From an uncultured Eubacteriales bacterium (lineage in GTDB: Bacteria; Bacillota; Clostridia; Oscillospirales; Ruminococcaceae), in the NCBI GenBank assembly GCA_900314975.1, contig OMXI01000021.1, forward strand, positions 1 through 33,880: a stretch of DNA of 33,880 nt, written 5' to 3'. Position numbers and translations under genes: made by a program. Position 1 is the stretch's first letter. Each line of letters begins with the position of its first letter. Of the stretch, positions 2,813 through 33,436 are shown one piece after another. The notes beneath the pieces are model-generated. The model did not search any database and was not told the origin of the DNA. It was given only the letters and a program-made list of their open reading frames with translations.

Positions 2813-4837
2813 ATGAAGAAATGGAAAATAAACAAATGTGATGAAACGCTTGCTGATGAGTTTGCCTCAAAGTGCGATATCAACAAGCTTGCGCTCAAGG
2901 TGCTGACTTCAAGGGGAGTTACCGATTTTCAGCAGGTCATTGACTTTTTTGACCCGCCCGAGCTGTCAGACCCTTTTCTGATAAAGGATATGGATAAGGC
3001 AGTCGAGGTCATCAATGAAAAGATAGACAGCTACGAGCTTATCTGTATCTACGGCGATTATGACTGCGACGGTATAACTGCAACGTCTATCCTCTACAAT
3101 TATCTCGAAAGCATGGGCGCAAATGTTATGTATTATATCCCCGAGCGCTCTGACGGCTACGGGCTTAATGCAAATGCTGTTAAAGAGATAGCGCAAAAGG
3201 GCGCTGCCCTTATCATAACCGTTGATAACGGTATCTCCGCGGTAGAGGAGGCAAAGCTGATAAAACAGCTTGGTATGCAGCTGGTCATAACCGACCACCA
3301 CCAAGTTCCCGAAGTGCTGCCCGAGGCAGCCGCTGTTGTCAACCCGCACCGCAGCGACTGTCCCTCGCCGTATAAGGACTTGTCGGGCGTAGGCGTTGCA
3401 TTCAAGCTGTGTGCCGCTATCGATGACGGCAGCTACGATGCCGTGCTGGAGCAGTACGTCGATATCTGCGCAATCGGTACTGTCGCCGACGTTGTTCCGC
3501 TTAACGGTGAGAACCGAACTATCGTCAAGCACGGACTTGAATATCTGAAAAATACCGAAAATCCTGCGCTTTGCAAGCTGTTTGAGCTTTCCTCTCTTGA
3601 AAGGGAGCAGCTTGATGCAGAGAATATTTCGTTCAGAATAGCCCCCGTTATCAATGCGTCGGGCAGATTCGGTACTCCGCTTACAGCAGTAAGAGCCCTT
3701 TTGAGCGAGCAGACGCAGGACGCTGAAGAGTATATCAGCCGGCTGTTTGAGCTTAATACAATGCGCAAGCAGACCGAAACCGAGATAGTCACCGAGATAA
3801 TGGAGCATATCAACAAATACCCGCAGACACTCAACCATTCGGTACTTGTCCTTTGGGGAAAGAACTGGCACGCAGGCGTTATCGGCATAGTCTCATCAAA
3901 AATACTTGAACTGTACGGCAAGCCCAACTTTATTATCTCCATTGATGATGACGGGAATGCAAGAGGCTCTGCGCGCAGCGTACACGGCTTTGACGTGTTT
4001 GAATGTCTTTGCAGGTGCGGTGAGCTTTGCGAAAAATTCGGCGGACACGAGTGCGCTGGCGGTTTTTCTCTCAAAGAGGAGAATATCGGCGCGCTGTGCA
4101 GCAGAATATATGATTATGCGGATTCGCTCGAAAAGCCGCCTGTCAAAGAGATAGAGGCGGATATGGTGCTGATGCCGGGCGATATAACCGTAGAAAACGT
4201 CAGGGGTCTGAAAGCACTCGAACCTTTTGGTCAGTGCAACAGCGTTCCCACCTTTGCCATTCTCGGCGCAAAGGTGCTTGTCATCACACCTCTTTCGCAG
4301 GGCAAGCATACAAGGATAGATTTCAATTACGGCGGATTTAAGGGGCAGGCGCTGTTCTTCTCGCTTTCAGCCGATAAGTGTTGTTTTAAAGTCGGCGATA
4401 AGCTGGATATGATAGTTCGGCTTGACATCAACAGCTTCCGCGGCGCAGAATCCGTTTCGATAATAGTCAAAGACCATAGACTCAGCGGCATCAAGCAGGA
4501 AAGATACTTTGCCGCAAAGCAAAGCTATGAAAAGCTTATGCGCGGCGAAACGCTCCCCGGCGCATATATCCGCAAAATGATACCTTCCCGTGAGGAGCTT
4601 ATAAAAGTCTATAAGTACATAAACAGCGTAAAGACCACAACTGCGGATTATATGTTCATGAACCTTAACGACGACAGTATGAACTACTGTAAGCTGCGTA
4701 TATGTATTGATATTTTCAAAGATAAGGGACTTGTCGAATACAAGCCCGCAACAAGCAGAGTAACCGTTTGCGAGGTCAAGGCAAGAGTTGACCTTGAACA
4801 GTCCGAAACTCTTGTCAGATTAAAACAAATGCTTTAA
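2813..4837 (+). CDS. recJ: Single-stranded-DNA-specific exonuclease RecJ
   Basis: RecJ degrades single-stranded DNA 5' to 3' and acts in RecF-pathway recombination, mismatch repair and base excision repair. The 674 residues show the DHH phosphoesterase core: IYGDYDCDGITAT (Asp82, Asp84, Asp86), VDNG near residue 138, and the name-giving DHH at 161-163. The DHHA1 half follows with WHAGVIGIVSSKI and FGGHECAGG, then a C-terminal OB-like part and an extra tail of about 100 residues that I cannot assign. The length is within the family range. The ribosome binding site is weak (AAAGAG). The gene is first in a long operon with rel sixteen bases downstream; recJ next to rel is a known Firmicutes arrangement. 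Confidence 0.95.
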   Translation: MKKWKINKCDETLADEFASKCDINKLALKVLTSRGVTDFQQVIDFFDPPELSDPFLIKDMDKAVEVINEKIDSYELICIYGDYDCDGITATSILYNYLESMGANVMYYIPERSDGYGLNANAVKEIAQKGAALIITVDNGISAVEEAKLIKQLGMQLVITDHHQVPEVLPEAAAVVNPHRSDCPSPYKDLSGVGVAFKLCAAIDDGSYDAVLEQYVDICAIGTVADVVPLNGENRTIVKHGLEYLKNTENPALCKLFELSSLEREQLDAENISFRIAPVINASGRFGTPLTAVRALLSEQTQDAEEYISRLFELNTMRKQTETEIVTEIMEHINKYPQTLNHSVLVLWGKNWHAGVIGIVSSKILELYGKPNFIISIDDDGNARGSARSVHGFDVFECLCRCGELCEKFGGHECAGGFSLKEENIGALCSRIYDYADSLEKPPVKEIEADMVLMPGDITVENVRGLKALEPFGQCNSVPTFAILGAKVLVITPLSQGKHTRIDFNYGGFKGQALFFSLSADKCCFKVGDKLDMIVRLDINSFRGAESVSIIVKDHRLSGIKQERYFAAKQSYEKLMRGETLPGAYIRKMIPSREELIKVYKYINSVKTTTADYMFMNLNDDSMNYCKLRICIDIFKDKGLVEYKPATSRVTVCEVKARVDLEQSETLVRLKQML

Positions 4838-4853
4838 AGTGAGGTGAGGATAA

Positions 4854-7049
4854 ATGTCTGAACAAAAGTCAATTACCGTCGATGTGTTGATACAAAAGAT
4901 TCTTGGCGGCGAAAAACAGTATGACCTTTCAAAGATAGTTTCGGCATATGAGGTCGCAAACAAATATCACGACGGTCAGAAAAGAGAGTCGGGGGAGCCG
5001 TACATTACCCACCCGCTTGCCGTGGCATATATCCTGCTTGAGCTTGGTATGGATACTGATACTATCTGTGCCGCATTGCTTCACGATGTTGTCGAGGATA
5101 CCGAATGTACTCTGGAGATACTGCAAAAGAAATTCGGCAGCGATGTCGCTATGCTTGTAAACGGCGTTACAAAGCTGAAAAAAGTCGAGACCTTTACAAA
5201 GGACGAGCAGAAAGCGGAGAATATCCGAAAGATCCTGCTTGCTATGAGCGAGGATATAAGAGTCATAATCATCAAGCTCGCAGACAGACTTCACAATATG
5301 CGTACCCTCAATTACTGCCGTGACGAAAAAAGGCGCAACATAGCCCACGAGACTATGAACATCTACGCGCCGATAGCGCACAGACTCGGTATACGCTCCA
5401 TCAAGGACGAGCTTGAAGACCTTTCCTTCAAGTACCTTGACCCTTATGCGTATAACGAGATAGAAAAGCAGATGAATCTGCGCAAGGGCAGCCGCGACCA
5501 GCTTGTTGAAGACCTTAAAGAAAAGATAAAGGAACGCCTTGACAAAGACATTCATCCTGCGCCTGCAATAGAGGGCAGAGTAAAGTCAAATTACGGCATC
5601 TACAAAAAGGTCTACCGCGACGGCAAGGAGATAGACCAGATATACGACCGCTATGCGCTTCGTATAATCGTCAATACAGTTACCGAGTGCTATAACGTGC
5701 TTGGCATCATACACGATATGTTCAGACCTATCCCCAACAGGTTCAAGGACTATATCTCCACACCAAAAGCGAATATGTACCAGTCACTGCACACCACCGT
5801 AATCGGCAGAGAGGGCGTGCCATTTGAGGTGCAGATAAGAACGTGGGATATGCACAAGACCGCAGAATACGGTATCGCAGCCCACTGGAAGTATAAAGAG
5901 GGCGTTGCAGGCGGCGATACCAAAGACGACCGCAGACTTGCCTGGATAAGACAGATAATCGAGTCCCAGCAGGAGTCTGACGATGTCGAGGAGATAGTGC
6001 GTGCTATCAAAAACGACCTCGCACCCGAGGACGTGTTCGCCTTTACACCCAAGGGCGATATGATAACCCTGCCCGTCGGCGCGACTGTTATCGACTTTGC
6101 ATATGCAATACACACCGAGGTCGGTCATAAGATGTGCGGCGCAAAGGTCGATAAGAAAATGGTTTCTTACGACTACCAGATAAAAACGGGCGAGATAATC
6201 GAGATACTCACCTCAAACGTCGCAGGTCACGGACCGAGCAGGTCGTGGCTGAATATCTGCAAGACCAACGAGGCAAAGTCAAAGATACGTCTCTGGTTCA
6301 AGCGCGAAAGACGTGAGGAAAACATATTCGAGGGCAGAAGTGCGCTCGAGCGTGAGTTCAGGCGCAATATGATACGCGTCCCCGAGGAAGAGCTTGAAGA
6401 ATTTCTCAAAATGGATATGAAACGCCATAACTGCGATACCTTGGACGATTTCTTTGCGGCGATAGGCTATGGCGGCGTGCAGCTTTCAAAGCTCATTGCA
6501 AGGCTCAAACTGGAGTATAACAAGAAATACGGCGAAAAGCCCGTTGTTGATACTCCCGAAAAGGAGATCAAATCGCAGACAAGCAACTATTCGGGTATCG
6601 TCGTCGACGGCGTGGAGGACTGCGTCGTAAGGTTTGCGCAGTGCTGTAACCCACTTCCCGGTGACGATATCATAGGCTTTATCACTAAAGGTCACGGCGT
6701 TTCCGTTCACAGAAAGGACTGCGTAAATTACCTCAATCAAAAGGACGACCCCGAGATGAAGGACAGATGGGTGTCCGTCAAGTACGAGGGAACAGGTAAA
6801 AAGCAGGGCTATTTCAAATGTACGCTTGATATAATCGCTGTCGACAGAATAGGTCTGCTTGCTGACGTTTCGTCAGCTCTTGCAATGATAAATATCTATA
6901 TCTACGAATCTACTGCAAGAGAGCTTAAAAACGGCAATGCTATCCTTTCTATCACCGTCAGCATAGCGGGCATGGAACAGCTTAATAACGTGATAAACAG
7001 GCTTAAAAAGATAAAGAATGTCATTTCTGTCGAAAGAAGCGGCAAGTGA
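4854..7049 (+). CDS. relA: Bifunctional (p)ppGpp synthetase/hydrolase Rel
   Basis: This long RSH-family enzyme makes and degrades the alarmone (p)ppGpp and so sets the stringent response. The 731 residues are in canonical order. The hydrolase HD domain has His53 in YITHPLAVAY, His77-Asp78 and Glu81-Asp82 in LLHDVVEDT, and Asp144 in KLADRLHNMR. The synthetase domain contains RVKSNYGIYKK, DRYALRIIV and NMYQSLHTTV. A TGS domain (about 400-460) begins DVFAFTPKGD. A Cys-containing region (RFAQCCNPLPGDDI) and a C-terminal ACT domain (from about 655) complete the protein. The hydrolase residues are intact, so it should be bifunctional. The start has GAGGTGAGG upstream. The adenine phosphoribosyltransferase gene often found between recJ and rel is absent here. 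Confidence 0.96.
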   Translation: MSEQKSITVDVLIQKILGGEKQYDLSKIVSAYEVANKYHDGQKRESGEPYITHPLAVAYILLELGMDTDTICAALLHDVVEDTECTLEILQKKFGSDVAMLVNGVTKLKKVETFTKDEQKAENIRKILLAMSEDIRVIIIKLADRLHNMRTLNYCRDEKRRNIAHETMNIYAPIAHRLGIRSIKDELEDLSFKYLDPYAYNEIEKQMNLRKGSRDQLVEDLKEKIKERLDKDIHPAPAIEGRVKSNYGIYKKVYRDGKEIDQIYDRYALRIIVNTVTECYNVLGIIHDMFRPIPNRFKDYISTPKANMYQSLHTTVIGREGVPFEVQIRTWDMHKTAEYGIAAHWKYKEGVAGGDTKDDRRLAWIRQIIESQQESDDVEEIVRAIKNDLAPEDVFAFTPKGDMITLPVGATVIDFAYAIHTEVGHKMCGAKVDKKMVSYDYQIKTGEIIEILTSNVAGHGPSRSWLNICKTNEAKSKIRLWFKRERREENIFEGRSALEREFRRNMIRVPEEELEEFLKMDMKRHNCDTLDDFFAAIGYGGVQLSKLIARLKLEYNKKYGEKPVVDTPEKEIKSQTSNYSGIVVDGVEDCVVRFAQCCNPLPGDDIIGFITKGHGVSVHRKDCVNYLNQKDDPEMKDRWVSVKYEGTGKKQGYFKCTLDIIAVDRIGLLADVSSALAMINIYIYESTARELKNGNAILSITVSIAGMEQLNNVINRLKKIKNVISVERSGK

Positions 7050-7069
7050 CGCTTTGATATGGAGGATAT

Positions 7070-7699
7070 ATGCGAATTTACAGTCTTAAACCGCTCAGTA
7101 TCTGCGATACTAACAGCTATATCGTAGCAAGCGCGCAGGATAACGCCGTGCTTATTGACGCACCCGCTGATGCGGATTATATTCTTGAACAGATAAAGAT
7201 GTACGGGCTTACGCTAAAAAAGATTTTTTTGACCCACGGTCATTTCGACCATATCGGCGCTGTTGCCGACCTTGTTGAAAAAACAGGCTGTGAGGTGTAT
7301 ATCTGCGCATTTGATAAAAACAAGATATACGACGAGGACAGTATGCTCGTCAATCACTTTATGGTGCGCGGATACAAAAAATATGCAGGCGAGGTCATCA
7401 CCTTTACCGAGAATGACATTCTGACACTTGACGAGCTTGAATTTGACGTAGTCGAGACTCCCGGTCACACAAGCGGCTCTGTATGCTTTATCTGCGGCGA
7501 TGTGATGTTTTCGGGAGATACGCTGTTTGCGCGTTCCTGCGGCAGAACAGACCTTCCCGACGGTGACCCTGCGGCTATGAAACGCTCTATGAAAAAGCTG
7601 TATGACCTCGGCGGCGATTTGAAGGTCTACCCGGGGCATATGCAGTCAACAACGCTTGATACCGAGCGCAAGTACAACCATTATATGCAGGGCTTGTAA
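7070..7699 (+). CDS. Metallo-beta-lactamase-fold hydrolase, glyoxalase II-like
   Basis: This 209-residue soluble protein has the full dinuclear metal set of the MBL fold: THGHFDH (His56, His58, Asp60, His61), ETPGHTSGS (third-motif His), FSGDTLF (bridging Asp) and VYPGHM (last His). The short single-domain form resembles the YqgX/GloB-like hydrolases of Firmicutes, which may cleave thioesters such as S-lactoyl conjugates; the substrate cannot be read from sequence. It starts 20 bases after rel with GGAGGATAT in front of the ATG. An MBL gene downstream of rel is common in Clostridia. Confidence 0.9.
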   Translation: MRIYSLKPLSICDTNSYIVASAQDNAVLIDAPADADYILEQIKMYGLTLKKIFLTHGHFDHIGAVADLVEKTGCEVYICAFDKNKIYDEDSMLVNHFMVRGYKKYAGEVITFTENDILTLDELEFDVVETPGHTSGSVCFICGDVMFSGDTLFARSCGRTDLPDGDPAAMKRSMKKLYDLGGDLKVYPGHMQSTTLDTERKYNHYMQGL

Positions 7700-7726
7700 T
7701 CCAACAAACAACGGACGGACAGAAAA

Positions 7727-9181
7727 ATGACATTAGTTTTCAGCGGAAACGACTATAAATATGAAATTGAGGGCGTAATGAAGCTGTTCATACCCGCAAC
7801 GCTTTTTGATATCGTCTACGGCGACGAAATACCGCCCGGCGACTTTGCGTTTGTGAGAATGAAGCGGTTTGATAATTACGCCCTTTTGTATGTGATATGC
7901 TCATATGGCGGCAAAAAATCAAGAAAGGTATGCAGGTCATCACTTGATGCCGATTTTGAGCTTATCCTTTCGCGCCTGCTTTTCAAGGCTATGTCCGAGA
8001 TAACGGGCGTAGTTCCAAAATGGGGCGTTATCACGGGTATCCGCCCCGTCAAGCAGGTGAACAGATATCTTCATAAGAATATGACCGAGAGCGAAATATT
8101 TGAGGCTTTTCAAAGAGATTACCTTTGCTCTCACGAAAAGTGCGAGATAGCTTTGAAAACCGCCACCGCGCAGAAAAAAATACTTGACGAGCTTGATAAA
8201 AACAGCTTCAGCCTGTATGTTTCGATACCGTTTTGTCCGACACGCTGTTCGTACTGCTCGTTTGTGTCGCAGTCGATAGAGCAGTGTATGGGACAGATAC
8301 CCGAGTACCTTGATAATCTGTGCAAGGAGATAGAGTATACGGGCGCACTTGTGAAAAAGCTCGGACTACAGCTTGATACCGTCTATTTCGGCGGCGGCAC
8401 ACCCACCACGCTTGAAGCGCACCAGCTTGAGCGTCTGATGAAAACCATAGCCGCAAGCTTTTACCTTTCACATCTGCGCGAGTATACAGTCGAGGCGGGC
8501 AGACCCGATACCATAACGCAGGAAAAGCTTGAAACCATAAAGAAAAACGGCTGTACGAGAGTGTCTATCAATCCGCAGACGCTTTCCGACAGCGTACTTG
8601 AAAAGATAGGCAGAAAGCATACAACCGAGCAGTTTTTCAAAGCCTTTGACCTTGCACGCAAGGTAGGCTTTGACAGCATAAACACCGATATCATCGCAGG
8701 ACTGCCTTCCGATACGCCCGATAGCTTTGCAAATACAGTTGATAAGCTTATTCAGCTCGGTGCAGAGAATATCACCGTGCATACCCTTTCGATAAAGCGT
8801 GCGGCGAGACTTAACCGAAACCGCGAACAAGGCGTGCTTGAAAACCCTGCCGATGAAATGGTAAGCTATGCTACCAAACGCCTGCTTGAAAGCGGCTATG
8901 CGCCTTATTACCTTTACAGGCAGAAAAATATGCTTGAAAACCTTGAAAACATAGGCTGGTCAAAGCAGGGAAAGGAAAGTCTGTATAATGTTTACATAAT
9001 GGAAGAGGTACAGACTATCCTTGCCGTAGGTGCGGGCGGCTCGACAAAGCTCGTAGACCTTGACGGTAAGCGGCTTGAGCGTGTTTTCAACTATAAATTC
9101 CCGCTTGAATACAATAAGCATTTTGACCTGATGCTTCAAAAGAAAAACGAGATAGAGGATTTTTATGCTCACAAAGAATGA
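7727..9181 (+). CDS. hemZ: HemZ, radical-SAM coproporphyrinogen dehydrogenase-like protein
   Basis: This 484-residue radical SAM protein is of the HemN/HemZ class. The cluster motif is SIPFCPTRCSYCSF (Cys170, Cys174, Cys177), followed by the SAM-binding FGGGTPTTL and the HemN-like stretch with TVEAGRPDTI, VSINPQT and DIIAGLPSDT. The N-terminal extension of about 165 residues before the radical SAM core is typical of HemZ and distinguishes it from HemN and HemW. HemZ-type proteins are annotated as oxygen-independent coproporphyrinogen III dehydrogenases, but many anaerobes that carry them lack a full heme pathway, so the true substrate is uncertain. The ribosome binding site is poor. The 3' end overlaps rlmD by 17 bases. 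Confidence 0.9.
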   Translation: MTLVFSGNDYKYEIEGVMKLFIPATLFDIVYGDEIPPGDFAFVRMKRFDNYALLYVICSYGGKKSRKVCRSSLDADFELILSRLLFKAMSEITGVVPKWGVITGIRPVKQVNRYLHKNMTESEIFEAFQRDYLCSHEKCEIALKTATAQKKILDELDKNSFSLYVSIPFCPTRCSYCSFVSQSIEQCMGQIPEYLDNLCKEIEYTGALVKKLGLQLDTVYFGGGTPTTLEAHQLERLMKTIAASFYLSHLREYTVEAGRPDTITQEKLETIKKNGCTRVSINPQTLSDSVLEKIGRKHTTEQFFKAFDLARKVGFDSINTDIIAGLPSDTPDSFANTVDKLIQLGAENITVHTLSIKRAARLNRNREQGVLENPADEMVSYATKRLLESGYAPYYLYRQKNMLENLENIGWSKQGKESLYNVYIMEEVQTILAVGAGGSTKLVDLDGKRLERVFNYKFPLEYNKHFDLMLQKKNEIEDFYAHKE

Positions 9182-10523
9182 AGAAATAATTCTTGAGATA
9201 ACGGGTATTACCAACGAGGGCAACGGCGTAGGCAGATACGACGGCGTGGCTGTCTTCGTTGCAGGTACAGCAGTCGGCGACGTTATCGACTGCAAAATAG
9301 TCAAGGTGAACAAAAGCTATTGCTACGGCATAGTCACAGGCTTTGTCACCAAATCACCTTACAGAACGGACGATACCTGCCTTGTTTCGCATACCTGCGG
9401 CGGCTGTTCGTTCAGACATTTTACCTATGAGCAGGAGTGCGCTGTAAAAAACAGTTTTGTCAAAGCGTCTTTTGAGCGCATCGGCAAGCTGTATCCCGAA
9501 TATGAAGCTTTTCTCGGCTGCGATCAAACCTCGCATTACCGCAATAAAGCGCAGTATCCCGTAGGCTTGCAGGACGGCAAAGCTGTCTGCGGCTTTTACG
9601 CAAAGCGTTCGCACCGCATATGCGCGCATACCGACTGTGACCTTCAGCCAACGGTGTTTGCGGATATAGTAAACAACATTATGGATTATGTTAATGAAAA
9701 CCATATCCGGCCCTATGACGAGCAGTCGGGCAGTGGACTTTTGCGCCATATCTATCTGCGAAGAGGTGAACACTCGGGCGAGATAATGCTTTGCCTTGTC
9801 GTTACAAGCATTTTAAAGTCAAAGTGCTTTGACGGACTTATCAGCCGTATAAGCGCGGAGTTCCATGATATTAAGAGCATCGTTTTAAACGAAAATCCGA
9901 TAAATACAAATGTTATCCTCGGTAAAAAGACCGTGACAGTGTTTGGCACAGATACGATAAAAGATACTATGTGCGGCAATACGGTAACTATATCTCCGCA
10001 GTCGTTTTATCAGGTCAATACCTTGCAGGCTGAAAGGCTCTACACAATTGCAAAAGACTACGCACAGCTTGATGAAAACAGTATCCTGCTTGACCTCTAC
10101 TGCGGCGCAGGAACCATAGGACTTTCAATGTGCAAAGGCATTAAAAAGCTTGTCGGCGTCGAGATAATACCGCAGGCGATAGAGAATGCAAAGCTCAACG
10201 CAAAGCTGAATAATATCAGCAATGCCGAGTTTATCTGCGGCGATGCGGGTAAAGTCGCAAAGCTGCTGTACGAGCGCGGCGAAAGACCGAATGTTATCGT
10301 TGCAGACCCCGCACGAAAGGGTTGCGATAGGCAAAGCCTTGAGTATATGGCAAAAATGCAGCCCGACAGGATAGTGATGATATCCTGCAACCACGCCACC
10401 GCCGCAAGAGATTGTGCAGTACTCGGTCAGCTTGGGTATAAGACCGAAAAAGTCAGGGGAGTTGATTTGTTTCCCCGTACTACCCACGTCGAGTGCGTTA
10501 TCCTGCTCACAAAAGGAGATTAG
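9165..10523 (+). CDS. rlmD: RlmD/TrmA-family 23S rRNA (uracil-C5) methyltransferase
   Basis: This family uses SAM to methylate uracil C5 in rRNA or tRNA. The 452-residue protein has an N-terminal TRAM domain (about 1-60), then an iron-sulphur cluster motif Cys72-x5-Cys78-x2-Cys81 with a distal Cys158, as in RlmD. The SAM pocket is LLDLYCGAGTIGL and the catalytic cysteine lies in ISCNHATAARD (Cys408). Two positions are unusual: His follows SCN where Pro is normal, and the DPPR motif reads DPARKG. Position U1939 as the target is presumed, because Gram-positive paralogues such as RlmCD have other specificities. The start overlaps hemZ by 17 bases, which suggests coupling. Confidence 0.9.
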   Translation: MLTKNEEIILEITGITNEGNGVGRYDGVAVFVAGTAVGDVIDCKIVKVNKSYCYGIVTGFVTKSPYRTDDTCLVSHTCGGCSFRHFTYEQECAVKNSFVKASFERIGKLYPEYEAFLGCDQTSHYRNKAQYPVGLQDGKAVCGFYAKRSHRICAHTDCDLQPTVFADIVNNIMDYVNENHIRPYDEQSGSGLLRHIYLRRGEHSGEIMLCLVVTSILKSKCFDGLISRISAEFHDIKSIVLNENPINTNVILGKKTVTVFGTDTIKDTMCGNTVTISPQSFYQVNTLQAERLYTIAKDYAQLDENSILLDLYCGAGTIGLSMCKGIKKLVGVEIIPQAIENAKLNAKLNNISNAEFICGDAGKVAKLLYERGERPNVIVADPARKGCDRQSLEYMAKMQPDRIVMISCNHATAARDCAVLGQLGYKTEKVRGVDLFPRTTHVECVILLTKGD

Positions 10524-10526
10524 AAT

Positions 10527-11105
10527 ATGACCACAGTATATTCTGTCCGCCACGCACAGCCAAGGTATGATTGGGCTGATGACAGGACGCGCCCTCTTAC
10601 CGACGAGGGAATTAAAGATACCGACCTCGTACTCGAAACGCTTAAAGACAAGGGTATTGATGTATTTTATTGCAGTCCCTACAAACGCAGTCTTGATACC
10701 ATAAAAAGCACCGCAGAGTTTTACTGTATGCCTATCACCACAGACGAGAGATTTCGTGAGCGTCGCTGCGGTAAAATAAAAGGAAATATAAAAGAAATGT
10801 TTGAAAAGCGCTGGACAGACCATAGTTTTCACGAGCCTGGCGGAGAGTCGCTTGATATGGTGCAAAAGCGCAATATCGAGGCTCTTGAAGAAATACTTGC
10901 AAAAGAAAGCGAAAAAAACGTAGTTGTCGGTACGCACGGCACAGCGTTAAGCACTATCCTGCATTACTATGACAGCTCATTCGGGCTAGAGGATTTTATG
11001 CGCATCATCGACTGGATGCCGTATATAATCAGACTTGATTTTGACGGCACAAAGCTCGTGAATAAAACCGAAATCGCACATATACATAAAGCATTTAAAG
11101 GATAA
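10527..11105 (+). CDS. Histidine phosphatase family protein (phosphoglycerate mutase-like)
   Basis: This 192-residue member of the branch of the histidine phosphatase superfamily has the phospho-acceptor motif YSVRHAQ (Arg8, His9; RHA instead of the usual RHG). The second arginine is in SPYKRSLDT (Arg54), the acid is in the FRERRCGK region, and the second catalytic His is His137 in VVGTHGTAL. The substrate is not predictable; relatives act on sugar phosphates, nucleotides or cofactor precursors. It starts three bases after rlmD with AAAAGGAGA as ribosome binding site, so it is part of the same operon. Confidence 0.88.
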   Translation: MTTVYSVRHAQPRYDWADDRTRPLTDEGIKDTDLVLETLKDKGIDVFYCSPYKRSLDTIKSTAEFYCMPITTDERFRERRCGKIKGNIKEMFEKRWTDHSFHEPGGESLDMVQKRNIEALEEILAKESEKNVVVGTHGTALSTILHYYDSSFGLEDFMRIIDWMPYIIRLDFDGTKLVNKTEIAHIHKAFKG

Positions 11106-29612: not shown

Positions 29613-29763
29613 TTGCTTTGATATTGCCTCTTGGCAGTTCATCAACTATGCACAAATTATTGCACCGTTTCTTGTTCAATTCGCAGAAATACTCTTTGAT
29701 TTGATAAACAAAGCTCACCGTTTCAGACTATATATACAAAAGACTTGCAGAAAGGGGTATACA

Positions 29764-29910
29764 ATGGAAAAGGAAATGACTAAAACCGATGTAGAGCGTT
29801 TTATCAAATGGATGCTTGACCAGCTTGATACAGGACCCGACCCCAAGCTTGAAGAAAGGATTTATAAAAGGGTATTTGTGAAAGACAAGGTGAATAAAGA
29901 AGATGAATAA
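29764..29910 (+). CDS. 48-residue protein overlapping the sigma-permease gene
   Basis: This small, highly charged soluble protein (MEKEMTKTDVERFIKWML at its start, acidic and basic residues throughout) has no recognised family. ATG 29764 has GAAAGGGG upstream; the frame is open to 29599 but without a comparable site. Its last eight bases overlap the start of the sigma-permease gene, so the two are probably translated together. By position it could be a regulator of the sigma domain, such as an anti-sigma peptide; that is inference only. Confidence 0.65.
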   Translation: MEKEMTKTDVERFIKWMLDQLDTGPDPKLEERIYKRVFVKDKVNKEDE

Positions 29911-32900
29911 TAAAGATATTACCGAATTGACTGCCAAAGCAAAGAGCGGTGATAAAGACGCATTTGAAAAACTGTATAAAGAGTTTTATTCCAAGGTGTA
30001 CTATTTTGTACGGCAAAATACGGGCTGTGACGATGCCGCCGAGGATATCACTGCCGAAACGTTCAGTGCAGCTATGCAAATGCTGCCCACACTGAAAAAT
30101 GAAGAATCTTTTGTCGGCTGGCTTTACTGTATCGCCTACCGAAAATGTGCTGATTTTATCAAGACAAAGCAGCTTGACCGAAAACAGCGTGAAGATTCAG
30201 CACAGCTTGCTTCGCTCAACGAGCCTGTAATGCTTCCCGACGATTATGCGATAAACAAGCAGACCAAGCAGCAGCTTCAAAGTATAATCGATTCACTGCC
30301 TGCTGATATGCGCAGTGCCGTAATTTTTTATTACTATGACGGCTTGTCGCTTACTGAAATCGCGCAGATAATAGGAACCAATAAGAACAATATCGGACAG
30401 AAGCTTTACCGAGCGCGCCAGAAGATTCGCAAGCAGATAGAAAAGCTAAAAGAAAAAGGTGCAATGTTCTCGGCCGTTCCATTCAGCGCCGTGCTTGCAA
30501 ACCTTGAAAGCGCAGGGCTTTTGTCAGGCGTTAGCAGCGTTGCTGCAATAGGTGCGGCGGCAGCCGCAGTCCCAGTCGGGCTTTCCGCATTAAGCGCAGG
30601 CACATCACGCCACCTGCTCGGCTTCACACTAAAGTATTGGCGCAAGCACAAAAAGAGCCTTGCTGCGCTGCTGTTCTCAGGCGTGCTGCTGTGCGCGCTG
30701 ATATGCTGTGCGATGCTGACTTTGCGGCAGGAATATATCAGACAGATAGATAGAATGTACAATATGGAGGGACACTACGAGTTCCTCACCTCGACAAAGC
30801 ACCAGAACATTATCGACATGCTTACGGGCGAGGACACTGTCACGGGGAAAATGAACGTTTACGGTCTGATGGGTGTGGGCAATATCAAGTACGAGTACGG
30901 CTCGCTCGACGACCCCGAAAACCTCGCGCATATCCCAATGGAAACAGGTCGCTTGCCACAGAAAAAAGGCGAGATAGCCATTGACCGACAGGTGCTGACC
31001 AATTTCGGATTTTTCGGCAAGGTCGGAGACGAGATAACTCTTGACAAGGGAACATTCACACTCGTCGGCATCATTTTTGACGACAGGGAAAGTACGGATG
31101 CGTGGTCTATGTCTTACGGCTGGTGCCGTGAAGGCTCGCGCCTGCGTGTCGACGAAAACAAGCAAAACAACTATTATATCGAGGACAAATCGATGTTTGA
31201 CAAGGAATACCTTGTCCCGCTGATATTTGTCAGTCCCGACGAGGAGCAAACGCCCGAATACACGCTTGTTATGATAGATAACATAGCTGGTCTTGACCGA
31301 ATGCCGTATGATTATAACTGGCTTGCAGACGAACCGTTTGAAGACGGCATAGGTGAGTTAGTTGATAAGGTCGCAGATATAAGCGGATACGACAGAGAGA
31401 CTTTTGGCAGAGATTACAGTGGATTCTTCAGAGACCACCGACAACAAGCTATCGACTTTTATTACTCTAAATTCTACGAACAGATATACACAAAATTACT
31501 GCTCTACGGTGCAGCGATTATAATTGCCGTGCTGTCGGTAATCGCCGTTATGCGCAACATTTTCTCCGAGCGTGAAAACACTATCTCAATGCTTCGACGC
31601 ATAGGTGTGTCAAAGCGCAGGATAAGGGTGATGTACACTATCGAGTATATATTCCTCGGTATCCTGCAGGCTGTTATCGGTATCGCTGCTGGCATCGGTG
31701 TGCATATCGGAATTTACGAGTATCAGGTAAATGTGCTTGAAAAGTCGGAGTTCTCGGGCTTTTCGCACAACGAATACGACCGTTTCCTCTGCCCCGACCC
31801 GTTTGTATGGTCAGCGCTTATCGCCGCAGGTGTTCTGCTTGTGGGTTATGTTCTGGCTGCACTTATGCAGCGCTCGCGTGTGCCAAAACTCAAAAGACGA
31901 AAGGCAGGCTCGGTGCGCAGATGCTTTGCAAAGGTGTTCCGCAACCGCGCAGTTACAGTGCTTCAGACTATGTCGCTGACGCTGATAATCTTCGGCACGC
32001 TGTTCGGGTATATGCTGTTCAGACCCACAATAGGCGATTTTGATTATAGAACGGGAGAGTTCCACAGAACGCTTGACACAAAATTCGGCGACCCTTTCAG
32101 TATGACGCAGAGGTTTGATTTCGAGGAAGAAAACGTCAAGGAGTACTACCGCGCGGACAAAACCGTGACAAACGAGGGGAATATGCCTATGCTGATAAAG
32201 CTCGGTCAGACTACAGGCATCGACGACGAAACTGCCGACAAGCTGGGCAAAAGCTATTCAAAAGGCGTTTTGCCGCAGACCGTGATAAGTTCAAAAACCG
32301 AGCTGCCGCGACCTGTTTCGTGGGAATCGCAGGAGGTCAAGGACTATTTCTACAAGATGTCCACCGAGCAGGGCAAAAAGTTCTACGACAATAATGAATC
32401 GCTTTACAGATGCAAGACCGCGCTTGCGGACAAGGCAACGATAGAGAAGATTAAAGACTGTGTGACAAGCGGAGAAATAAACATAGATAAGATAATGTCC
32501 GGCGAGGAAATCATATACGTTTACAGCCACTTTGACTCGTCGCTGAAAGTCGGAGATATAGTGAAGCTTGTCTCCGCGACCACCGAAAACGGCTTTGGCA
32601 TAGACGATGTGACCGAGGCAACTGTGCGGATAGGCGCACTTGTCAAGCTGACTGACGATATGGACAAAATGACAAGATACTCCGTCAGCGCAGGAGACGA
32701 TTTCAATTTGCTCACCACCGTTACGGGCGCAAAAAAGCTTGGCTTGCACGGCGCAAGCTATACCGAGATAATCGCAAGAGAGGAGATAGGCAAGCTGCTG
32801 CCGATGAACACGGGTCTGCGCGTCAAATCTCTTGAGAAGCAAAAGCACGATATCTTCGTGCAGAACGCATCGCTCTACGGCTCACTGGGTCTGCTTATAC

Positions 32901-33436
32901 TCGTGATGTCTCTGCTCGGCTTTGCGGCGTATTTCAACGGCATAGGCATGAAGATACGAATGAAAGAATACCAGATAAGTGTTATGCGAGCCATAGGCAC
33001 ACCGCTGAAAAAGCTGCGCCGCAGGCTTATGCTCGACAGCGTGCGCATACCAATATTTGCGGGTTCCATCGCCTACGGGCTTATCCGCATCACCCAGAGC
33101 GTAATGCTGCACGCCCACGACAAAGCCGAGGGAATAATTCATGATATAGCGGAAAAAGCTGCTGTGTTCCGCCAAGCGCACGAGCAAGGCACGCCTGGCT
33201 ATGATGAGCTGTATAATCAGTTCTATTCCGACTACAACGCTACCCAGAGACAAGCAGGTCGCTTGCAGCACTATTATATGACCGACCTTCAAATGTGGTT
33301 CAACAACGTTTTGATACCCACGCTTATTATCTGCGCTGTTATGTGTATGGTAACCATTCTGCTCACGCGCAAATCGGTCGGCGGCTTCGGCAGCAACATA
33401 GCATACTCGATAAGCAAAGGGAGGAAACGCAGATGA
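29903..33436 (+). CDS. ECF sigma factor fused to an FtsX-type ABC transporter permease
   Basis: One uninterrupted 1177-residue frame encodes two different machines. Residues 1-185 are a complete ECF sigma factor: region 2 with CDDAAEDITAETF and VGWLYCIAYRKCADFI, region 4 with LPADMRSAVIFYYYDGLSLT and EIAQIIGTNKNNIGQKLYRA. Residues 186-236 are a hydrophobic Ala/Ser/Val/Gly linker. From about 238 (LLGFTLKYWRKHKKS) a complete duplicated FtsX/MacB-like permease follows: helix at 252-274, ectodomain to about 520, helices at about 530-553, 583-604 and 634-657, then a second half with a helix at 684-706, an ectodomain and helices at about 992-1015, 1051-1067 and 1136-1157. No ribosome binding site or ATG lies at the junction. 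The ABC ATPase gene overlaps the stop (ATGA). The sigma domain would be cytoplasmic and tethered. Confidence 0.93.
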   Translation: MNNKDITELTAKAKSGDKDAFEKLYKEFYSKVYYFVRQNTGCDDAAEDITAETFSAAMQMLPTLKNEESFVGWLYCIAYRKCADFIKTKQLDRKQREDSAQLASLNEPVMLPDDYAINKQTKQQLQSIIDSLPADMRSAVIFYYYDGLSLTEIAQIIGTNKNNIGQKLYRARQKIRKQIEKLKEKGAMFSAVPFSAVLANLESAGLLSGVSSVAAIGAAAAAVPVGLSALSAGTSRHLLGFTLKYWRKHKKSLAALLFSGVLLCALICCAMLTLRQEYIRQIDRMYNMEGHYEFLTSTKHQNIIDMLTGEDTVTGKMNVYGLMGVGNIKYEYGSLDDPENLAHIPMETGRLPQKKGEIAIDRQVLTNFGFFGKVGDEITLDKGTFTLVGIIFDDRESTDAWSMSYGWCREGSRLRVDENKQNNYYIEDKSMFDKEYLVPLIFVSPDEEQTPEYTLVMIDNIAGLDRMPYDYNWLADEPFEDGIGELVDKVADISGYDRETFGRDYSGFFRDHRQQAIDFYYSKFYEQIYTKLLLYGAAIIIAVLSVIAVMRNIFSERENTISMLRRIGVSKRRIRVMYTIEYIFLGILQAVIGIAAGIGVHIGIYEYQVNVLEKSEFSGFSHNEYDRFLCPDPFVWSALIAAGVLLVGYVLAALMQRSRVPKLKRRKAGSVRRCFAKVFRNRAVTVLQTMSLTLIIFGTLFGYMLFRPTIGDFDYRTGEFHRTLDTKFGDPFSMTQRFDFEEENVKEYYRADKTVTNEGNMPMLIKLGQTTGIDDETADKLGKSYSKGVLPQTVISSKTELPRPVSWESQEVKDYFYKMSTEQGKKFYDNNESLYRCKTALADKATIEKIKDCVTSGEINIDKIMSGEEIIYVYSHFDSSLKVGDIVKLVSATTENGFGIDDVTEATVRIGALVKLTDDMDKMTRYSVSAGDDFNLLTTVTGAKKLGLHGASYTEIIAREEIGKLLPMNTGLRVKSLEKQKHDIFVQNASLYGSLGLLILVMSLLGFAAYFNGIGMKIRMKEYQISVMRAIGTPLKKLRRRLMLDSVRIPIFAGSIAYGLIRITQSVMLHAHDKAEGIIHDIAEKAAVFRQAHEQGTPGYDELYNQFYSDYNATQRQAGRLQHYYMTDLQMWFNNVLIPTLIICAVMCMVTILLTRKSVGGFGSNIAYSISKGRKRR

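Follow-up and report, generated by a model that had tools for sequence, protein, structure and literature searches.

Bacteria usually carry envelope signals to transcription through several proteins, among them a sensor, a kinase or anti-sigma factor, and proteases. In BceABS systems, a type VII ATP-binding cassette (ABC) transporter reports to transcription through its permease BceB, which signals to a separate histidine kinase; transporters of the BceAB type have ten transmembrane (TM) helices and one large ectodomain. Here we describe a gene that may also link a type VII transporter to transcription, but with the transcription factor within the permease. It lies at the end of a 33,880-nucleotide stretch of DNA (the window; contig OMXI01000021.1, assembly GCA_900314975.1) from an uncultured Eubacteriales bacterium of the Ruminococcaceae, and its product joins an N-terminal extracytoplasmic function (ECF) sigma factor (the head) to a complete FtsX/MacB-like permease (the body). 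We think it an even call that this protein is a sensor, transporter and transcription switch in one, in which a clamped sigma factor would be freed by the working transporter and would turn on its own operon.

ECF sigma factors that carry a fused regulatory extension are already known (PMC8999054). In ECF48/52/53 (SCO4117) and in ECF243 IutY, the sigma factor is N-terminal and a membrane regulator follows on the same chain (PMC8999054), and in this respect the fusion is alike. Those extensions, however, are anti-sigma-like (in ECF48/52/53 a zinc finger with one or two TM helices), whereas the fusion carries a whole ABC permease that has an ATPase of its own. No zinc-binding motif follows region 4 in the fusion, residues 185–243 containing no Cys and one His (H236), and Pfam gave no such match. 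In ECF41 (SigJ and others) a SnoaL-like extension contacts the sigma linker (PMC8999054); it is a soluble domain, whereas the predicted clamp of the fusion is a short strand and helix attached to a membrane protein, and no SnoaL-like C-terminal domain of the ECF41/ECF56 kind was matched by Pfam at E 0.1. Table 2 of PMC8999054 lists ECF262 (model SFB89493.1, Ruminococcus albus) with a regulatory extension and the mechanism ‘Others'; our guess from that entry is that ECF262 may include relatives of the fusion heads that carry a single TM helix.

The body shares its permease fold and layout with the type VII transporters YbbAP, MacB and LolCDE. YbbP has 10 TM helices (PMC12646458) and no sigma factor, whereas the fusion body has eight by hydropathy. 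We did not recognize a sigma-FtsX fusion among titles and abstract openings of the open-access literature, a set that lacks the main ECF classification paper (Casas-Pastor 2021). We thus found no precedent for a complete ABC permease as the extension of an ECF sigma factor, which does not imply its absence from print.

A sigma factor and a permease in one frame

The earlier note on this DNA, made from the sequence alone, had read a full ECF sigma factor (regions 2 and 4) in frame with an FtsX/MacB-like permease, and the gene for its ATPase overlapping the end. Both readings are borne out by Pfam and NCBIfam matches along an uninterrupted frame and by an ATGA overlap, in which the ATPase starts inside the stop codon of the fusion (Table 1). 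The NCBIfam sigma70-ECF match covers residues 19–179 (2.8e-27), and Pfam FtsX matches two stretches of the body, the better at residues 535–658 (5.9e-13). The ATPase translation carries the ABC motifs GKSGSGKST and LSGGQQQR.

Table 1. Coordinates of the fusion operon and its parts within the window.
Feature	Position	Strand	Basis or remark
ECF-type promoter motif TAAAC-N14-CAGACTATA, putatively self-recognized	29705..29732	+	motif search
Micro-ORF, 48 aa	29764..29910	+	overlaps sigma start; previously unannotated
Sigma-permease fusion gene	29903..33436	+	1177 aa, single frame without stop
Sigma-70 region 2, aa 24–90	29972..30172	+	Pfam PF04542 Sigma70_r2, 2.2e-10
Sigma2-sigma4 linker motif NEPVMLPDDYA, aa 106–116; predicted strand 109–112	30218..30250	+	alignment, AlphaFold
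Sigma-70 region 4, aa 123–175	30269..30427	+	Pfam PF08281 Sigma70_r4_2, 1.7e-12
Predicted clamp: strand FSAV 189–192, P193, helix 194–203	30467..30511	+	alignment, AlphaFold
Ala-rich segment, putative demoted TM helix, aa 211–231	30533..30595	+	alignment, hydropathy, flanking charge
FtsX/MacB-type permease body, aa 241–1177	30623..33433	+	Pfam, hydropathy, AlphaFold, Foldseek
Cognate ABC ATPase, first 149 codons, truncated by contig end	33433..33880	+	translation motifs

The body has the features of a type VII (MacB/FtsX) permease: FtsX domains, a unit of TM1, ectodomain and TM2–4, and a dedicated ATPase. It is laid out as TM1 (253–271), a first ectodomain (~276–530), TM2–5, a second ectodomain (~705–985) and TM6–8. 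The count of eight comes from hydropathy alone, and the seventh peak is weak (1.35) and falls under the cut in some homologues. Foldseek ranked YbbAP first for the full model (9ge6, E 3.9e-13; its 799-residue chain is presumably YbbP) and MacB next, with further permease matches to BceAB, LolCDE and YtrEF, BceB ranking lower; the best sigma match was SigW bound to its anti-sigma factor. The earlier note had named BceB-type FtsX permeases as known sensors; we rejected a BceB-type topology for the body, given eight hydropathy peaks and one large ectodomain in each half. Nor does any finding point to a peptide antibiotic as substrate, the example given there.

Fusions of this kind, which the earlier note had suggested looking for, number 13 across nine of the sampled genomes, in three genera (coded g1, g71 and g113). 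The window's own genome (G000) holds a second full-length fusion, 53% identical to the first. Within the genus sample (29 genomes) fusions occur in five genomes: two each in G000 and G027 and one each in G020, G021 and G022, the last recorded as uncultured Ruminococcus sp. isolate RUG13311. Five of the 297 genomes of the family sample carry them, namely G000 and, from other genera, G098, G140, G274 and G306; G140 has three on one 3.56 Mb contig, the third found by a head-profile search. No additional fusion appeared in the order (394 genomes) or class (391 genomes) samples at the thresholds used. In the family, order and class samples, only two candidates per genome were scored by whole-protein search, so these counts are lower bounds. 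A pattern-based search of genome contigs, with patterns taken from one query, returned a single locus, L039. An ATPase homologue directly follows all 13 fusions, two of these ATPases being truncated by contig ends. We rejected a plasmid home within the records covered: of 72,556 plasmid records, tblastn matched two, both confined to sigma residues 4–176.

In G020 the 3' end of the copy is broken; a decayed, internally deleted copy in G028 is left out of the 13. Secreted papain-like reading frames adjoin the broken and decayed copies (L044, L045): at L045 955–4668 (−), with a matching frame beside L044, is a protein of ~1240 residues with C-terminal cell-wall-binding-like repeats.

Since the near-identical linkers of paralogues within a genome (215 nt exact in G027) could mislead short-read assembly, and since decay is seen in L045 and at the 3' end of L044, we considered whether the fusion is non-functional or an artefact of assembly or decay. 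This is very improbable. The longest exact match between the window gene and its paralogue is 44 nt, and the three fusions of G140 sit on one long contig. The ratio of nonsynonymous to synonymous substitution (dN/dS) is at most 0.36 in all segments of the six pairs for which the synonymous rate could be estimated, which counts against loss of function. The artefact and decay readings are thus largely refuted, and the earlier statement that this is no decayed gene pair is upheld by the paralogue, by recurrence in relatives and by selection. The least conserved segment between the window protein and its paralogue is ectodomain residues 401–530 (19% amino-acid identity), as would be expected if every pump sensed its own ligand.

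A separately started permease was likewise rejected. Between codon 176 and the permease N-terminus, 12 of the 13 fusions lack an in-frame start with a Shine-Dalgarno-like word (six words tested); the exception is L084, with one GTG preceded by GGAGG, and Met188 of the window protein has no such word. This agrees with the earlier observation that the junction has no start codon preceded by a ribosome binding site. In silico checks found no stop or frameshift there and no absence of the fusion from relatives. As a separate observation, the right end of G000:C71 and the left end of G000:C61 both break inside ATPase genes that are 97% identical over 149 residues, probably a repeat-induced assembly break.

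A predicted clamp, the linker and possible release

Many sigma factors of the sampled genomes, three of them in the window's genome, have the same head with one TM helix and an ectodomain in place of the permease (TM-type heads). Across 37 of 37 aligned heads, fused and TM-type, P112 of the sigma2-sigma4 linker and P193, after the FSAV strand, are invariant. Strands 109–112 and 189–192 are present in both AlphaFold models; in the second (37 rows) the mean predicted local distance difference test score (pLDDT) was 79–97 in sigma blocks and 70–86 in clamp blocks. Secondary structure from DSSP suggests that the strand after region 4 pairs with the linker strand to form a clamp. The linker motif is missing from nine of nine plain ECF sigma factors matched in the same genome, with one near match (IPHED, L077). 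Foldseek TMt values were higher for anti-sigma-bound SigW-RsiW (0.54–0.56) than for initiation complexes (0.32–0.41), a soft hint of a restrained form. Because the extension of ECF41 likewise contacts the linker, the clamp may, by analogy, restrain the sigma factor. The earlier proposal that the transporter tethers sigma therefore stands in part: the fusion is genuine, tethering is its natural reading and the predicted clamp strengthens it, while the restraint itself we infer.

The Ala-rich segment at residues 211–231 aligns with the single TM helix of the receptor-type (TM-type) heads, in which a G[VI]P-like break is frequent. Its best Kyte–Doolittle hydropathy is 1.11–1.88 in 12 fusions versus 1.64–2.61 in 23 TM-type heads (Mann–Whitney p 6e-5), and on a second scale the two groups overlap more (p 0.001); the analysis used hydropathy and 2005 insertion scales, and the p values disregard shared ancestry. 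Flanking charge in TM-type heads is mostly positive before the helix and mostly neutral or negative after it, and in fusions zero or negative before and positive after. Since a spanning helix would invert the permease, the linker most likely stays on the cytoplasmic side, which speaks against plain intramembrane cleavage in the fusions; in TM-type relatives such cleavage is possible.

These properties bear on the main rival to conformational unclamping, in which engagement of the transporter leads a rhomboid, site-2 or Clp-type protease to cut the Ala-rich linker and free a soluble sigma factor, as for IutY. IutY is described as released by proteolysis, and the same route is expected for ECF48/52/53 and ECF115 (PMC8999054). 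The break motif of the aligned TM helix and a pLDDT below 50 over the linker in both models (residues 202–222 in one, 210–253 in the other) are consistent with such a cut. The lower, if overlapping, hydrophobicity of the fusion linker and its reversed flanking charge speak against it, as does the permease N-terminus, which must stay cytoplasmic, so that the linker should not span for an intramembrane protease. The sole protease-like neighbour seen (L044, L045) is the secreted papain type, on the wrong side of the membrane, the rest of the genomes not having been searched for proteases. Altogether we regard proteolytic release as unlikely.

It is possible, though less likely than not, that the conformational cycle of the pump unclamps the attached sigma factor without proteolysis, making it a flux-sensing sigma on an interchangeable cassette of promoter, micro-protein and sigma, with sister pumps of a cell sharing one sigma specificity. 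In the switch that we hold at even odds, the post-region-4 strand and the linker strand would keep the N-terminal sigma compact and inactive in an intramolecular clamp, and the flexible Ala-rich segment, a former TM helix, would tie this clamp to TM1 of the permease. Binding of a substrate at the two ectodomains, together with ATP cycling, would move TM1 and the stalk and so strip or loosen the clamp. The released or exposed sigma could then steer RNA polymerase to the promoter ahead of the micro-ORF, fusion and ATPase, and more transporter would be made.

Promoter motif, micro-ORF and head cassette

Upstream of the heads lies a motif resembling an ECF promoter. All 12 fusions tested have its relaxed form, TAANN-N14-16-N[GCA][ATC]C[TA]A, where shuffles gave a mean of 3.4 and a maximum of 8, and in each fusion one copy lies between −184 and −198 relative to the sigma start; in TM-type loci it occurs in 12 of 23, equal to the shuffle extreme (mean 6.6, max 12). 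An intermediate form is found in eight of the 12 fusions, against a shuffle mean of 0.8 and a maximum of 4, and in 13 of the 23 TM-type heads, against a mean of 2.0 and a maximum of 7; the strict form TAACC-N15/16-CGTC precedes 12 of these 23 heads (shuffle mean 0.013). These counts leave out L025 (short upstream), L045 (decayed) and L084 (a later find). Thirteen of 34 loci have the strict form upstream; on that strand it recurs at seven other sites within 214 kb, confined to L021, L023, L036, L037 and L038, and the other strand has none. L036–L038 have two or more tandem TAACC-N15-CGTC copies ahead of the micro-ORF. A genome-wide search of the window's genome with the fusion-type motif gave two perfect matches, both at the fusion operons whose sites had supplied the pattern, and two more with one mismatch; no wider regulon emerged.

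The motif suggests that the sigma factor may use its own upstream promoter. A self-type promoter would equally suit a sigma that is constitutively active while tethered and so couples the amount of transporter to its own transcription at the membrane; conservation of the predicted clamp suggests restraint instead, and we hold this alternative to be quite improbable.

Between the promoter motif and sigma is a micro-ORF of 35–51 codons (46–48 in fusions). In all 12 fusions tested its end overlaps the start of sigma, to which it is probably translationally coupled. Counterparts stand at 21 of 25 TM-type heads, 19 within the overlap limit and two (L003, L024) beyond it; L016, L030 and the first L035 gene have no convincing copy, and the L005 candidate looks non-homologous. 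Of 12 micro-ORF pairs compared, nine have a dN/dS under 0.3 and one has 0.56, the ratio being undefined for the other two. No convincing match to the family was found in Pfam, NCBIfam or the PDB (best Pfam E 0.0067, in two of 17 members; best PDB E 0.14).

The coupling to fused and TM-type heads alike, purifying selection in most pairs and travel with the head cassette would suit a micro-protein that regulates: a small helical anti-sigma or co-factor setting sigma activity, with the fusion just localizing sigma at the membrane. No known anti-sigma family matches it, however, four TM-type heads have no convincing copy, the micro-ORF may be a mere coupling leader peptide, and this account leaves the fusion of heads to sensors unexplained. 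We judge it improbable.

Promoter, micro-ORF, sigma and linker form a cassette that travels from one transporter body to another. The body tree makes the window gene and L039 sisters (support 100/99), whereas the head tree joins the window gene weakly with L042 (74/78) and L039 firmly with L044 (100/99). In approximately unbiased tests, on clades picked after the trees had been seen, head data reject the window–L039 clade (p 5e-5), and body data reject both window–L042 (p 2e-6) and L039–L044 (p 1.6e-50). Two G140 operons have 197 of 200 upstream bases and 98–99% of sigma nucleotides in common, whereas their bodies are 44–60% alike, the drop coming after TM1. Paralogue linkers are unusually similar within G000 (82–94% of nucleotides) and G027 (97–100%), which suggests conversion or exchange; those of L039 and L044, from different genomes, are 86–90% alike.

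Several points weigh against a clamped, self-transcribing switch. No finding ties motion of the body to the clamp, and the mechanism is drawn from sequence and models. The first AlphaFold model is poorer (sigma blocks at pLDDT 57–80); both models are monomers without RNA polymerase, micro-protein or ATPase, and the strand pairing comes from DSSP, not from coordinates or pair errors. The root mean square deviation to anti-sigma-bound forms is still ~11–19 Å, and TMt for NepR-bound RpoE (0.40–0.42) overlaps that of initiation complexes. The strict promoter form occurs in just 1 of 12 fusions, the motif varying; the promoter rows share ancestry, so that the shuffles overstate significance; and a reversed-pattern control also gave four matches at ≤1 mismatch in the window's genome.

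A receptor-like sigma family

The window protein has the traits of the receptor-type family: linker P112, clamp P193 and the usual upstream micro-ORF. A profile search at 1e-40 found heads in other families, in 17 of 295 order genomes and 9 of 291 class genomes, both counts including the window's own genome and two of the order matches being short sigma factors. By eye, the translated ectodomains of receptor-type heads include leucine-rich-repeat-like and lipase-like ones. L083 (G029), L100 and L101 (G580) and L103 (G531) join a family head, a TM helix and a large leucine-rich-repeat-like ectodomain, most clearly in the first three, and are apparent receptor sigma factors. L102 (G361:C17) has a head truncated by the contig start, a lipase-like ectodomain (GHSLGG) and a C-terminal hydrophobic segment. 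A TM-type sigma gene lies in pieces near a fusion operon at the left end of L060 (G140:C2:187–958), and the window itself encodes a plain ECF sigma factor without extension, distant kin of the fusion head, at ~2074–2571 (−).

A sigma tree of 35 rows places all 12 fused heads together, with support of 90/83 on an unstarred branch, and next to the TM-type head L068. The permease tree intermingles fused with stand-alone bodies. The five stand-alone relatives (L040, L062, L064, L065, L067) have an adjacent ATPase in three cases and start just ahead of the KYWRKH motif, where fused bodies start, L067 doing so if an inner Met is its start. Read by eye, L040 (~3585–10552) has its permease and ATPase adjoining an Agr-like set (AgrB-like protein, GHKL kinase, LytTR regulator). 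No histidine kinase was seen by eye in translations of the fusion operons, that of the window being truncated in its ATPase; nearby are a two-component pair at L043 and a kinase-like frame on the opposite strand at L044.

The paralogue, the receptor-like sigma family, the micro-ORF, the promoter motif, the demoted TM helix and the reassortment of heads and bodies all go beyond the first reading of the sequence. Sensor, pump and sigma factor are apparently one polypeptide with its own promoter, a compact system for asking how the motion of a transporter controls transcription. Cross-talk is predicted between pumps with near-identical heads, and the locus draws attention to a wider family of receptor-like sigma factors, apparently little studied, with an orphan micro-protein.

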